Below, piece after piece: positions 29,237 through 33,694 of a DNA stretch of 33,714 nt (its first letter is position 1; every line of letters starts with the position of its first letter). The translations under genes were made by a program, and so were the position numbers. The stretch comes from a virus. The stretch covers positions 1 through 33,714 of the IMG/VR virus record IMGVR_UViG_3300042934_000204; one strand, 5' to 3'. The notes below the pieces were generated by a model. It was not told the DNA's origin, made no database searches, and worked only from the letters and a program-made list of their open reading frames with translations.

Positions 29237-30005
29237 AGGTACCGTCCTCCCGACGAATCAGGCCGGCGGTGTAGTCGCGGTCAGCGAAGCCGGTGTGGCG
29301 GGATGCCGGGAACGGGTGGACGTTGCCGATGGCCTTCTCGGGGAATATTCCGGTCCAGCCGTTGGCGATCGAGATTGCGAGCACCTGGTCCGGGGATGCA
29401 TGGCCCACCAGTGACTTGGCCTGTTGTTCACAGCTCTTGGCGGTCAGTGGCTTGCGGATTTCCTTGCGGTGCTGGCACCAGTCGGCCCAGGCCTTTTCGG
29501 AAACGTTGTCGGGCTTGGCAGTCAGCGGATCGAACTTGCCAGACTTCGCCGGTGCGCCAGCACCTTGCTTTTGATCTTGCTCTTTCTTCTCTTCTCTTCT
29601 CTTCTCTTCTCTGGTCCGCAAACTGTCCGCATCCGAAGCGGACAAATTGCGGACAGGGTTTTTCCGCTCGTTTCGTTTGCGTTCAGAGTCGTTGGCGCGG
29701 CGCTTGGCGCTGGCCCCGTTGTGCTCGTCAAAGCGAGGCATTACGAGGCTTCCATCGTCCTCAAGGGCCGCCCACTCAACGTCGATCATGGCCTGGGTGA
29801 AGCCCGGCCAGCCCACCACTGCATCCATCGCATCCACGGTGTAACCCACCAGCACACCATCGTGCGAGTGGGTGTCGAAGATGCTCCAGGCGACATGCAG
29901 TCCGCCGATAATCCTCAATCTGTCCGCTTGCAATGCGGACACCATGCGGAACACTTTCGGATGCGTCTGAAGGTCGATTCGCATTTTTATCCAGTCCCCG
30001 GCCAT
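29226..30005 (-). CDS. O-like replication initiation protein
   Basis: A 259-aa protein. The N-terminal half (about 1-100: DWIKMRIDLQTHPKVFRMVS, HVAWSIFDTHSHDGVL) is a DUF1376-like or winged-helix domain. A charged linker REEKRREEKKEQDQKQG (about 130-146) joins it to a DnaT-like C-terminal half (VSEKAWADWCQHRKEIRKPL). It likely binds the origin and recruits the helicase loader. ATG 30005 overlaps the antirepressor stop (TAATG). The gene carries iteron-like repeats and a purine-rich tract within the coding sequence, as lambda O does. A much longer frame upstream is a shadow. Confidence 0.8.
   Translation of the reverse strand: MAGDWIKMRIDLQTHPKVFRMVSALQADRLRIIGGLHVAWSIFDTHSHDGVLVGYTVDAMDAVVGWPGFTQAMIDVEWAALEDDGSLVMPRFDEHNGASAKRRANDSERKRNERKNPVRNLSASDADSLRTREEKRREEKKEQDQKQGAGAPAKSGKFDPLTAKPDNVSEKAWADWCQHRKEIRKPLTAKSCEQQAKSLVGHASPDQVLAISIANGWTGIFPEKAIGNVHPFPASRHTGFADRDYTAGLIRREDGTYAF
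29587..29612. repeat. Pentanucleotide CTTCT tandem repeat in the replication gene
   Basis: The plus strand carries a run of CTTCT units (about four and a half) within an uninterrupted pyrimidine stretch. On the coding strand it gives GAAGAGAAGA and encodes the charged linker. The unit length is not a multiple of three, so slippage would shift the frame. Confidence 0.7.
29613..29655. other. Candidate replication origin: nested 11-bp phased dyad A
   Basis: TCCGC begins at 29615 and 29626; the inverted form GCGGA begins at 29638 and 29649. Each pair is 11 bp apart. The centre is TGTCCGC-N7-GCGGACA (29624-29644). It lies in the middle of the O-like gene, directly next to an asymmetric purine/pyrimidine tract, as in lambda ori. 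Confidence 0.55.
29901..29952. other. Second phased repeat cluster B in the replication gene
   Basis: TCCGC (29901), TCCTC (29912) and TCCGC (29923) are spaced by exactly 11 bp. They are followed by inverted GCGGA at 29935 and 29946. The centre is again TGTCCGC-N7-GCGGACA (29921-29941), as in cluster A. Confidence 0.5.
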
Positions 30006-30802
30006 TACGCGGCCCTCAGTGCTTTGTCGTGGGTGAACAGGCCGTCCCAGGTCTTCTTCATTGGCAGCTCGCCCGCCAGGTACAGGTCGTACAGCCGGGC
30101 GGCGCCCTTCTTCAGCAGGACAGGCGTGTAGGAAATGAAGGCGTCTTTGCCGTGAGGAGTGACTTCGTGCTGGTGCTCGGTCATGTACTTGTCGCGGGCA
30201 TAGGACGCCACGCGCAGGCGCAGGCCGGTCTTGCTCTCGTTGTAGAGCCAGTTCCGGGTCTCCAGATACTTGCCAACCTGCATCACGTTGACCCCATTCA
30301 GGCCCTTGCAGAACTGGGTATGGGTCATGCCTTCCTTGAACAGGTTTTCCATGGAGTGGATCTTCGAAGCCTGAGCTTCGACCTGGATCGCCAACTGAAG
30401 ACGCTGCTGCTCGGCCTCGAAGGCTATCTGGATGAGATCCATGCGGGAGAGTTCGCGCGGCTGAGACAGTGCATTGATCTTGGAGACGACCGAGCGGCGA
30501 ACTGCTTTCGATTCCCGCATCGAGATCAGGAGGCACTGATCCTTGGTCAACATCAAAGCCTCAGAGGCTGGGCCGCGCTGATTCCTTACTACGAAAGTTT
30601 CGTAGTATTCGCCGTCCAGTTCGTCGCGGCAGCGCGCGGTGAAATCATTGCGACGAACCTCGCTTTCGCCGAACTCCTTGCGCGCGGCGTTGACTAGGTC
30701 GAGCAAGTCGAAGCTGCTCATTTTTTCACGCGACACGTTTTCGCCGTTGCCAAATTGTGTCGCGACACTGGCCGGGGGGTTGATGTTTGTAGTGGTTTGC
30801 AT
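30005..30802 (-). CDS. Rha / antirepressor-type regulatory protein
   Basis: A 265-aa protein. The Rha domain spans about 28-115 (MSSFDLLDLVNAARKEFGES, VRRNDFTARCRDELDGEYYE, LTKDQCLLISMRESKAVRR). A coiled segment (EAEQQRLQLAIQVEAQ) and a KilA-C/ANT-like C-terminal domain follow (FCKGLNGVNVMQVGKYLETR). Such proteins act as phage regulators or antirepressors. ATG 30802 has only a weak ribosome binding site (GGGACA). ATG 30721 (28 codons later) is an alternative start. A palindromic module lies between the two starts. Confidence 0.78.
   Translation of the reverse strand: MQTTTNINPPASVATQFGNGENVSREKMSSFDLLDLVNAARKEFGESEVRRNDFTARCRDELDGEYYETFVVRNQRGPASEALMLTKDQCLLISMRESKAVRRSVVSKINALSQPRELSRMDLIQIAFEAEQQRLQLAIQVEAQASKIHSMENLFKEGMTHTQFCKGLNGVNVMQVGKYLETRNWLYNESKTGLRLRVASYARDKYMTEHQHEVTPHGKDAFISYTPVLLKKGAARLYDLYLAGELPMKKTWDGLFTHDKALRAA
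30729..30768. promoter_or_regulatory. Operator-like module, copy 2, within the antirepressor 5' end
   Basis: GTGTCGCGACAC at 30757-30768 and a half site CGCGACAC at 30729-30736, with centres 32 bp apart. The minus strand shares CCAGTGTCGCGACACAATT plus a further TG, and AAACGTGTCGCG, with copy 1 at the same spacing. It overlaps the first codons of the antirepressor gene. Confidence 0.6.
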
Positions 30803-31366: not shown

Positions 31367-31615
31367 TTAAGCAGCTGAAAGTGATTGGCTGGGCGAAGAA
31401 CTGATCTGCGCCCATGGAAACGATGGGCAAAGGTCGGCCTTCTTGATCTGGCCTTCGGTTAAGGCCTCGATTTGCAGGGCACGCTTCGCCGGGACTGCTC
31501 GCTCACCGGAACACCATTGGTTCACGGTGGGTGCTGTTACCCGCAGCAGGCGCGCCATCTCCGCCTGGCTGCCCAGCAAGCGGGATGCTTCTTTGGCTGC
31601 TTCTGCTGATTTCAT
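31367..31615 (-). CDS. cro: Cro-like repressor (YdaS-type helix-turn-helix)
   Basis: An 82-aa protein starting MKSAEAAKEASRLLGSQAEM. The helix-turn-helix is SQAEMARLLRVTAPTVNQWC (about 16-35), with the trailing VPAKRALQIEALTEG as in YdaS/Cro-type proteins. It diverges from the cI-like gene and is the first gene from pR, with AGGAGA before its start. It should repress the maintenance promoter during lytic growth. Confidence 0.85.
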   Translation of the reverse strand: MKSAEAAKEASRLLGSQAEMARLLRVTAPTVNQWCSGERAVPAKRALQIEALTEGQIKKADLCPSFPWAQISSSPSQSLSAA

Positions 31616-31641: not shown

Positions 31642-31670
31642 AATATAAGGCATTACCTTATCGCAAACAA
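31642..31670 (-). promoter_or_regulatory. Early promoter pR
   Basis: Minus strand: TTGTTT (31665-31670), a 17-bp spacer and TATATT (31642-31647). An operator-like palindrome, TAAGG-N5-CCTTA, fills the spacer (31646-31660). It drives cro and the early operon. Confidence 0.6.
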
Positions 31671-31718
31671 GCCATTGCCTAACCGATATGCCGATAGGCC
31701 TAATTAGGCAATGCTTAC
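31646..31718. promoter_or_regulatory. OR operator cluster (three related 15-bp sites)
   Basis: Sites: TAAGGCATTACCTTA at 31646-31660; TTAGGCAATGGCTTG on the minus strand at 31668-31682; TTAGGCAATGCTTAC at 31704-31718, overlapping the repressor start codon. The same motif recurs at 33543-33581. Confidence 0.7.
31675..31704 (+). promoter_or_regulatory. Candidate pRM with leaderless start
   Basis: TTGCCT (31675-31680), an 18-bp spacer and CCTAAT (31699-31704). The start of transcription would fall at about 31711, the A of the repressor ATG. No Shine-Dalgarno precedes that ATG, as expected of a leaderless message like lambda cI from pRM. Confidence 0.45.
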
Positions 31719-32553
31719 CGGACCGGATTTAGGCGCCGCCATCGAGGCCGCGCGGATAGCCAAGGGCGTATCCAAAAAAAGACTCGCAGACGACTTCCAG
31801 GTGAAGCCTCCGTCGGTGCAGGGCTGGGTAAAAAACGGCCGTATCGACAAGTCGAAGCTGATGGATGTGATTGCCTACTTCGCCGATGTTGTGAGTCCTG
31901 AGCACTGGGGGCTGCGACCAGGCTTCTCCTACGAAAACATCCCCGATGATTTGGGTGCTGCGGTCGACCAGGGCCCCGCTCTTTCTGCGTCCGAACTGGT
32001 TCGCGGCATGTTGTCATCGCAAGGGAAAGGGCTTTCGGAGGAGTCTCGTCGTCGCCTGCTGGCTGCCGCCGAGGCTGATGATGGTGGCGGTGTAATCGAG
32101 CTGGATTATTACCGACCAGGTGCGGTGGGTGATGAGGTGTGGATCGCCCACTACGACGTTCGGGCGGCGATGGGTGGCGGACAGATCCCGCACGACTATC
32201 CTGAAATGCTCCAGGACATCCGAGTTAGCCCCCAGCACTTGCGCGAAATGGGCGTCGAATTCAAAGAACACTTCCACCTGAAGATGGTGACGGGCTGGGG
32301 TCAGTCAATGGCGCCAACGATTAAGCACCGCGACCCGCTTCTGGTGGACGTCAGCATTCGTGAGTTTGTTGGTGATGGGATTTACATGTTCACCTGGGAC
32401 GGCCACCTTTACATCAAGCGGCTCCAGTGGCTAGGCGACGACCAGCTCAGCATGATCTCGGATAACGCTCTTCATCCGCCACGGACAATACGTGCCGAGG
32501 ACGCCTACATCCAGGCGAGAGTTCTCTTGGTGTGGAATGCAAATTTGGTTTAG
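31711..32553 (+). CDS. cI: CI-like repressor with S24 peptidase domain
   Basis: A 280-aa protein. The N-terminal helix-turn-helix is SKKRLADDFQVKPPSVQGWV (21-40). The C-terminal LexA/S24 domain has GWGQSMAPTIKHRDPLLVDV (Ser199) and GHLYIKRLQW (Lys236). In the linker the usual Ala-Gly or Cys-Gly cleavage pair is absent; the aligned segment reads VRAAMGGGQ (150-158). Self-cleavage may therefore be weak or use another bond. An operator overlaps the start codon, which suggests autoregulation. Confidence 0.9.
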   Translation: MLTGPDLGAAIEAARIAKGVSKKRLADDFQVKPPSVQGWVKNGRIDKSKLMDVIAYFADVVSPEHWGLRPGFSYENIPDDLGAAVDQGPALSASELVRGMLSSQGKGLSEESRRRLLAAAEADDGGGVIELDYYRPGAVGDEVWIAHYDVRAAMGGGQIPHDYPEMLQDIRVSPQHLREMGVEFKEHFHLKMVTGWGQSMAPTIKHRDPLLVDVSIREFVGDGIYMFTWDGHLYIKRLQWLGDDQLSMISDNALHPPRTIRAEDAYIQARVLLVWNANLV

Positions 32554-32590: not shown

Positions 32591-33073
32591 ATGAAAGGAT
32601 TCGGGGCCGTAGCGCTTATGTTTGGCTTATTCACGGTATCGTTCGCCGAGGCTGGAGTATTTGAAGACGCAACCGATCGTTTTACCGGGGTTAGATCGGT
32701 TGCCTGGAACACGATACCCACAGAGCCAGAAACCTTTGCAGTTGCCACGTCGGCTTACTATTCGAAAGGCTCGCCTGCCCCCAACGAGTACCTCGTGCAG
32801 ATCATCACCTATTCGGACTCCGCACAGTTTGACCGGTGTCCATATGTCGACTGGTTGGTGGATGGTGAGCCCCTGGCGGATCTTCGGACAACATACAGTC
32901 ATGACAGTGGCGGGCTGGCAACAATCGAGCGATTCGTACTGAAGCCCGACCGAGCTATGCTGGCAAAGCTCACAGCAGCAAAACTGGTGGAATTCAAGGT
33001 CTGCAACGTCGAAAGTTCGATCAGCCGAGACGACATAGACGGCATGCGCAAGGTCCTCGAAAAAACCCAATAG
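32591..33073 (+). CDS. Secreted protein downstream of cI (lysogenic conversion candidate)
   Basis: A 160-aa protein with a signal peptide (MKGFGAVALMFGLFTVSFAE, cleavage near AEA-G). The mature part of about 138 residues is rich in acidic and aromatic residues and has two Cys (FDRCPYVDW and FKVCNVESS) that may form a disulfide. I recognise no family. It follows cI by 37 bases in the same direction and ends at a terminator, so it is likely co-expressed with the repressor in the lysogen. ATG 32591 is chosen because the signal peptide starts there; a longer frame overlaps cI. Confidence 0.7.
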   Translation: MKGFGAVALMFGLFTVSFAEAGVFEDATDRFTGVRSVAWNTIPTEPETFAVATSAYYSKGSPAPNEYLVQIITYSDSAQFDRCPYVDWLVDGEPLADLRTTYSHDSGGLATIERFVLKPDRAMLAKLTAAKLVEFKVCNVESSISRDDIDGMRKVLEKTQ

Positions 33074-33084
33074 ATACCTCACAG

Positions 33085-33109
33085 AAAGCCCGCCGCATCA
33101 GCGGGCTTT
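33085..33109. terminator. Bidirectional terminator between convergent genes
   Basis: AAAGCCCGC, a 7-base loop and GCGGGCTTT, with six T on the plus strand and AAA on the other side. It ends the cI operon and the convergent DUF1654-like gene. Confidence 0.85.
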
Positions 33110-33116
33110 TTTAATG

Positions 33117-33425
33117 TCAGAAGGGCGCGGCCTCCTCTACCCTCTCGATCAGCTCGACCGGCCGATCCTCTTCGGCGCACGCTTCCCACCTCAGCGTCAC
33201 CGACTCATCGTCGTTGAACGTCATGTCTATACCGTCCGTCTCGGATAGAACACCCATAACCTCCTCCCACTCCCGATCCCCGTCGCTGTCCAGGCGATAA
33301 ATCGTCACCCAGCGCTGAATCTGCGCCACCGGGTGGTTGATCATGTTCGAAAGCCTCAAGCTGAGCCTATCTAGACCGGTCATTTCCCGCTGGGATGCTT
33401 CTTTTTTGTCCGCCTGCTTCGCCAT
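33117..33425 (-). CDS. DUF1654-like protein under a LexA box
   Basis: A 102-aa acidic protein beginning MAKQADKKEASQREMTGLDR. The core LDRLSLRLSNMINHPVAQIQ, then RWVTIYRLDSDGDREWEEVM, matches what I know as DUF1654, a family largely restricted to Pseudomonas and its phages. The ATG at 33425 has AGGAGGTG six bases upstream. A LexA box (33444-33459) covers the promoter region, so expression should follow DNA damage. It lies next to OL and converges on the cI operon. No enzymatic motif; a role as an SOS-induced regulator is inferred. Confidence 0.78.
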   Translation of the reverse strand: MAKQADKKEASQREMTGLDRLSLRLSNMINHPVAQIQRWVTIYRLDSDGDREWEEVMGVLSETDGIDMTFNDDESVTLRWEACAEEDRPVELIERVEEAAPF

Positions 33426-33443
33426 TCCACACCTCCTATATTG

Positions 33444-33459
33444 CTGTATATCCATACAG
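33444..33459. promoter_or_regulatory. LexA box (SOS operator)
   Basis: CTGTATATCCATACAG matches the LexA consensus CTGT-N8-ACAG, with the A/T-rich alternating core preserved at all but the two central C positions. It lies 19 bases upstream of the DUF1654-like start codon. Confidence 0.8.
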
Positions 33460-33532
33460 GTTTAGCAAAGCCTATCTCAGTGGGCCAGAAAAGTAACCCC
33501 TCCCACAGGGCAATTCTCGAAAGGAGAAAAAC

Positions 33533-33694
33533 ATGAAAATAATTAGGCATTACCTATTTACAGATATTAGGCATTGGCTTATTGTTCATCCATCGAGACG
33601 CCACAGCGACTCGCCAGGGCCTCAACAGACCCACCGCTCTTTAGATCCACCCCCTGCCGGATTACCACCGGCCCAGATTCAAAGGCAGCGATGA
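33533..33694 (+). CDS. Possible 53-aa ORF spanning OL
   Basis: ATG 33533 has a near-ideal Shine-Dalgarno (AAGGAG, 33521-33526, spacing six). The frame runs 53 codons: MKIIRHYLFTDIRHWLIVHP, then an Arg/Pro-rich tail. Both operator sites are read in the same frame and encode the repeated IRHYL/IRHWL. The predicted pL start lies after this ATG, so another promoter would be needed. It may be a remnant or chance frame. Confidence 0.3.
   Translation: MKIIRHYLFTDIRHWLIVHPSRRHSDSPGPQQTHRSLDPPPAGLPPAQIQRQR
33543..33581. promoter_or_regulatory. OL operator cluster (two related 15-bp sites)
   Basis: TTAGGCATTACCTAT at 33543-33557 and TTAGGCATTGGCTTA at 33567-33581, centres 24 bp apart. They share the motif of the OR sites. 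The second lies between the -35 and -10 of the proposed pL. Confidence 0.7.
33557..33585 (+). promoter_or_regulatory. Candidate pL promoter
   Basis: TTTACA (33557-33562), a 17-bp spacer and TATTGT (33580-33585) on the plus strand, pointing out of the window. The spacer is filled by an operator site, the same arrangement as at pR. Confidence 0.55.

Follow-up and report, generated by a model that had tools for sequence, protein, structure and literature searches.

DUF1654, a protein family preceded by a conserved LexA box, as a candidate SOS signal for the induction of Pseudomonas prophages

Introduction

Coliphage 186 Tum is a LexA-controlled antirepressor of a temperate phage with a proven function, and the repressor that phage 186 carries is not known to be of the S24 type. 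The Gifsy antirepressors of Salmonella (GfoA/GtgA class) are also LexA-controlled (PMC3121763), and the Tum precedent is cited in PMC9700832. Small SOS partners of S24 repressors have been described as corepressors, that is, gp7 of GIL01, which partners LexA (PMC4551915), and DdrR, which partners UmuDAb (PMC11332147). Here we analyse a viral DNA of 33,714 bases (the window, meaning this whole stretch) in which a gene of the DUF1654 family lies in the immunity region behind a LexA box, and we propose its product as a good candidate for the signal that wakes Pseudomonas prophages on host DNA damage. DUF1654 is named in one open-access paper, and in the open-access literature we found no assignment of function.

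The immunity region of the window

The features on which the analysis relies are as follows.

31367..31615, minus strand: cro-like gene (YdaS/P22 Cro), from a profile search
31646..31716: OR-like operators, between the repressor and the cro-like gene
31711..32553, plus strand: CI-type repressor, helix-turn-helix and Peptidase S24 domains (PF00717, 58.6 bits)
32591..33073, plus strand: accessory gene between the repressor and the DUF1654 gene (phrog_36853), apparent signal peptide
33117..33425, minus strand: DUF1654 gene, 102 aa, acidic, tail ...VEEAAPF (PF07867, phrog_2707)
33432..33437, minus strand: ribosome binding site AGGAGG of the DUF1654 gene, assigned from sequence; G-rich in the family consensus
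33444..33459, minus strand: LexA box preceding the DUF1654 gene, CTGTATATCCATACAG on the plus strand and CTGTATGGATATACAG on the minus strand
33462..33474, minus strand: possible weak extra operator TAGGCTTTGCTAA, 3 mismatches, beside the LexA box; tentative
33543-33556 and 33567-33580: OL-like operators TTAGGCATTACCTA and TTAGGCATTGGCTT, repeating the OR motifs

An earlier note, made from the letters of this DNA, had placed a small acidic DUF1654-like gene next to OL, and both parts of that description hold. The product is a full family member (84.7 bits against the PF07867 profile, for which the curated cutoff is 27) with a pI of 4.4, it matches phrog_2707 (annotated as function unknown), and its gene adjoins the OL-like operators at 33543-33580, which repeat the motifs of OR. 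Both sets of operators are kept in phages that share the N-terminus of the repressor. The gene starts at the ATG at 33425 on the minus strand, in the order box, AGGAGG, ATG; the in-frame upstream ATG at 33455 is an unlikely start because it lies inside the LexA box. In the AlphaFold model, residues 17-80 form an ordered core (pLDDT ~88, order a-a-b-a-b-b) and the tail is disordered. The fold, considered as a clue to function, has no match in PDB or BFVD at E<=0.001 and no solved relative; profile matches were to DUF1654/phrog_2707 only, with no homology to a known antirepressor family, and no membership in a defence system or an NCBIfam family was found.

The possible operator at 33462-33474 is identical in locus L022 and less alike elsewhere; in L086 its sequence is closer to the operator, and in L016, L044 and L078 it is partly kept. 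CI or Cro might through it also touch the DUF1654 promoter. The phrog_36853 gene (32591-33073) encodes a small protein that is rarely present in relatives. Downstream of the cro-like gene, at 30005-30802 on the minus strand, lies an Ant-like antirepressor gene with KilAC similarity (phrog_63), so that the repressor of this phage may be the target of two regulators.

A conserved LexA box

The near-ideal LexA site that the earlier note had put upstream of the gene sits exactly at 33444-33459 and agrees with the LexA consensus CTGTATATATATACAG at 14 of 16 positions, against at most 10 for the 18 other CTG-N10-CAG sequences in the window. CTGTATATCCATACAG is the sole match with 3 or fewer mismatches in the 33,714 bases, where dinucleotide shuffles give an expectation of 0.08. 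Across 243 phage and prophage loci, drawn from viral contigs, GenBank phages and GTDB Pseudomonas genomes, a CTG-N10-CAG stands at the same site before DUF1654 in 239. Among the close viral relatives it is found in 79 of 80, mostly at -31 to -40 from the start of the match. A chance origin of the box was considered and is ruled out by the shuffles, the consensus scores and this conservation.

Only four loci are without the box. In L053 and L173 the 5' end of DUF1654 has been swapped for foreign sequence, L135 lies at a contig edge, and L182 has the near-box CTGTATGGATGTACAT. The replacement in L053 and L173 covers the promoter and the first residues and runs antisense to an integrase-like open reading frame; these two loci have a LexA-like box ~0.8-0.9 kb upstream of DUF1654. 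LESphi3 has a second strong LexA-like box, CTGTATATACAGACAG, near the 3' end of cI (L083:7020).

As the box occurs in 239 of 243 loci and comparable boxes number 25 elsewhere in the same 3.07 Mb, we regard it as near certain, judging from sequence, that the DUF1654 gene of Pseudomonas prophages is under LexA control; the SOS control proposed earlier for this gene is thus very strongly supported by a box conserved family-wide. A sigma-70 scan gave no promoter-like pair for the gene.

Pairing with the repressor

Wherever an S24 CI was found (235 of the 243 DUF1654 loci), it is convergent with DUF1654, and the same gene order recurs in the named phages F116, LESphi3, phi297, AUS531phi and VW-6S. 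Viewed from the repressor, DUF1654 is nearby in 77 of the 80 loci whose CI is closely related to that of the window; in the remaining three the contig continues for only 0.2-1.6 kb downstream, so that with enough downstream sequence the count is 77 of 77. In the sister CI clade (UFJF_PfDIW6 type, Met-Gly), by comparison, DUF1654 is present in none of eight loci, and these eight have no strong LexA box.

Given that the DUF1654 gene is always convergent with cI, one could envisage that its LexA promoter works mainly by antisense transcription into cI (that is, by interference), with the protein secondary. We hold this to be very improbable: the protein is conserved across the family, with invariant residues, kilobase gaps between cI and DUF1654 are common, and in the window a stem-loop with a T-run at ~33085-33113, recognized by eye, separates DUF1654 from the convergent genes.

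Pairwise distances between DUF1654 proteins follow those between CI C-terminal domains (Mantel r=0.60; 176 loci, with phi297-like loci removed), and it is the DUF1654 core domain that carries the correlation (r=0.63). In a thinned set r is 0.59, with a permutation maximum of 0.17. Unrelated neighbouring gene families of the same loci give r of -0.14 to 0.42 against the same domain, and only open reading frames that overlap CI or DUF1654 exceed the DUF1654 value. The CI C-terminal domain correlates less well with its own N-terminal domain (r=0.47), a comparison to be read with caution since helix-turn-helix types differ among the N-terminal domains, whose distances therefore saturate. Between IAHYD and IPQYD, two very different subtypes of the C-terminal domain, DUF1654 differs barely more than it does within them. 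Host relatedness or general linkage was considered as the cause of the correlation and rejected, as other genes of the same loci lack it.

Another possibility is that DUF1654 is an SOS-controlled accessory (moron) gene that is carried along with the immunity region and plays no part in the switch, in which case shared inheritance of a block would account for the co-variation. The slot between CI and DUF1654 is indeed highly variable among relatives (37-6720 bases) and holds accessory genes, as a passenger would allow. We nevertheless judge this distinctly improbable, given that the other genes of the region do not co-vary with the C-terminal domain, that DUF1654 is virtually never missing, and that the correlation shows no steady fall with distance (r=0.53, 0.72, 0.57 at 1.5-3 kb and 0.42 beyond 3 kb, in order of increasing gap). 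A link between DUF1654 and the repressor is supported by their strictly convergent order, by the presence of each gene with the other and by the co-variation of DUF1654 with the C-terminal domain, and a partnership with the CI C-terminal domain is likely. The simplest reading of these patterns would be that an induction module (that is, the CI C-terminal domain plus DUF1654) is exchanged apart from the recognition module.

Repressor cleavage

The earlier note had argued that the repressor lacks an obvious cleavage dipeptide and that the DUF1654 protein could for this reason be the inducer. The first point stands in so far as the window CI has neither Ala-Gly nor Cys-Gly, the dipeptides by which membership among self-cleaving S24 repressors is judged, and carries Met-Gly at the position that Ala-Gly occupies in HK022 and mEp460. 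It was overstated in that the catalytic pair, Ser (GQSM) and Lys (YIKRLQ), is intact in the window and is kept in all readable relatives. Among the 232 readable DUF1654-linked repressors (three more were unreadable) the dipeptide is Met-Gly in 217, Leu-Gly in 8 and Ala-Gly in 7. Open-access literature yielded nothing on Met-Gly cleavage.

A clean rule by which a non-cleavable repressor needs an inducer was tried and rejected, since Met-Gly repressors occur without DUF1654 (Marin, UFJF_PfDIW6 and AP1) and Ala-Gly CI occurs together with DUF1654 (F116/LESphi3 type). DUF1654 is therefore not simply compensating for lost cleavage and, with the dyad intact as well, the premise of a non-cleavable repressor is weak. 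Judged by its distribution, Met-Gly is a marker of a repressor clade and alone no call for an antirepressor. Because the dyad and the glycine are conserved, cleavage of the window CI may still be occurring.

Such persistence would also suit a protein that acts as a brake, that is, one that binds the repressor (or RecA), restrains its cleavage and delays induction until damage is severe. The same CI-DUF1654 pairing speaks for it, as do the retained dyad and glycine, with which cleavage probably still occurs, and gp7 provides a precedent by enhancing LexA binding and inhibiting LexA cleavage (PMC4551915). However, gp7 acts on host LexA and not on a phage CI, and we consider a brake improbable.

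The C-terminal tail and the core-chromosomal copies

The phage proteins commonly end in a motif that follows a variable disordered linker. An EExAPF-like C-terminus is present in ~175 of the 243 phage copies (VEEAAPF in the window), with proline at -2 in 187 and terminal phenylalanine in 194. It resembles the DDDIPF tip of the SSB C-terminus (PMC5872125) in having acidic residues and then a terminal Pro-Phe, which suggests a host DNA-repair partner for many phage copies. The motif is absent from core-chromosomal copies, from F116 and LESphi3 and from nearly all phi297-type proteins. In L127-L131, a phi297-type DUF1654 body carries an SAPF tail and stands with an IAHYD-like CI C-terminal domain; in this natural recombinant the tail has changed along with the repressor type.

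DUF1654 was found in 130 of 150 Pseudomonas genomes. In the class sample 1 of 369 genomes had it, namely the centre genome, and on this sampling the family is confined to Pseudomonas. Its core-chromosomal members form a clade separate from the phage clade (100/100 support). They are like the phage proteins in having the same PF07867 domain, in being acidic and in having a LexA box upstream (in 30 of the 31 sampled copies, L252 and L254-L283), but they differ in clade, in lacking the EExAPF tail, in often lying by endA and in having no repressor near; no CI was found in the core loci (3.2 kb each). The endA gene (endonuclease I) is near about two thirds of the core copies, which often adjoin it on its upstream side, and core DUF1654 and endA are likely to form an SOS operon. 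As this SOS paralogue has no repressor nearby, the DUF1654 domain can, it appears, act away from phage repressors.

These observations define the main rival to an action on CI, in which the targets of DUF1654 are DNA-damage proteins of the host (SSB-interacting proteins, RecA or nucleases), EExAPF imitates the SSB C-terminus, and the phage protein is a version of the core SOS protein that helps the phage to replicate or repair its DNA while it is being induced. The tail, the SOS-boxed paralogue often beside endA and the confinement to Pseudomonas are all consistent with it. Yet it leaves the strict convergence with CI, the reciprocal presence and the co-variation with the C-terminal domain unexplained and, as the motif is missing from the core copies and from the phage types named above, we regard it as rather unlikely.

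Proposed model

Our tentative preference, at somewhat under even chances, is for DUF1654 as an SOS-induced protein that acts on the CI C-terminal domain and promotes derepression. DNA damage would lead to LexA cleavage and a burst of DUF1654, which would bind the C-terminal (S24) domain of the convergently encoded CI; the bound repressor would lose oligomerization or undergo Met-Gly self-cleavage more easily, and its inactivation would bring derepression at OR and OL. Antirepressor action is plausible. Direct binding to CI is what we infer from the pairing, and that the protein would be an inducer rather than a brake is suggested mainly by the analogous cases of Tum in phage 186 and of the Gifsy antirepressors. 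The points in favour are the box (239/243), the convergent CI (235/235), the reciprocal presence (77/80 against 0/8), the co-variation (r=0.60) and the precedents of Tum, the Gifsy antirepressors, gp7 and DdrR; those against are the IAHYD/IPQYD subtypes, the Ala-Gly and Met-Gly exceptions, the core clade without CI and the SSB-like tail.

A broader scenario, which we think quite unlikely, would make DUF1654 a class of SOS-induced proteins, found across Pseudomonas, that regulate S24 repressors. In it the phage clade would have arisen from or alongside the core SOS protein and would pair with the Met-Gly CI C-terminal domain as an interchangeable induction module distinct from the module for DNA recognition, the SSB-like tail coupling the switch to the state of host single-stranded DNA.

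If the preferred model is true, it gives a function to an uncharacterized family of many Pseudomonas prophages (P. aeruginosa, P. fluorescens, P. putida and P. syringae groups), accounts for the response to DNA damage of repressors whose cleavage dipeptide is unusual, and implies that the induction module is swapped independently of the recognition module, which comprises the N-terminal domain, cro and the operators. The SOS-boxed core DUF1654 would extend the Pseudomonas SOS regulon by one gene.

Comparison with known systems

The closest likeness is to the Gifsy antirepressors, which are small prophage proteins directly under LexA and are proposed to inactivate repressors after DNA damage (PMC3121763). 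The two systems differ in that the Gifsy repressors are ~136 aa long, without a cleavage signature and uncleaved, whereas the window CI is a full-length S24 protein with an intact dyad; in that the DUF1654 gene is located within the immunity region and the Gifsy antirepressor genes are not; and in that no family match links the proteins. With 186 Tum the likeness is LexA control in a temperate phage, the antirepressor role being proven in the case of Tum, and no sequence-family link was found. The small DNA-damage-related partners of S24 repressors, gp7 and DdrR, are each narrowly distributed, as DUF1654 is, but they are corepressors, and no family match links DUF1654 to either. LexA-controlled antirepressors and small partners of S24 repressors are thus known already; what would be new here, judged against open-access papers, is an unrelated family, a full-length S24 repressor as its partner and a paralogue in the core genome.
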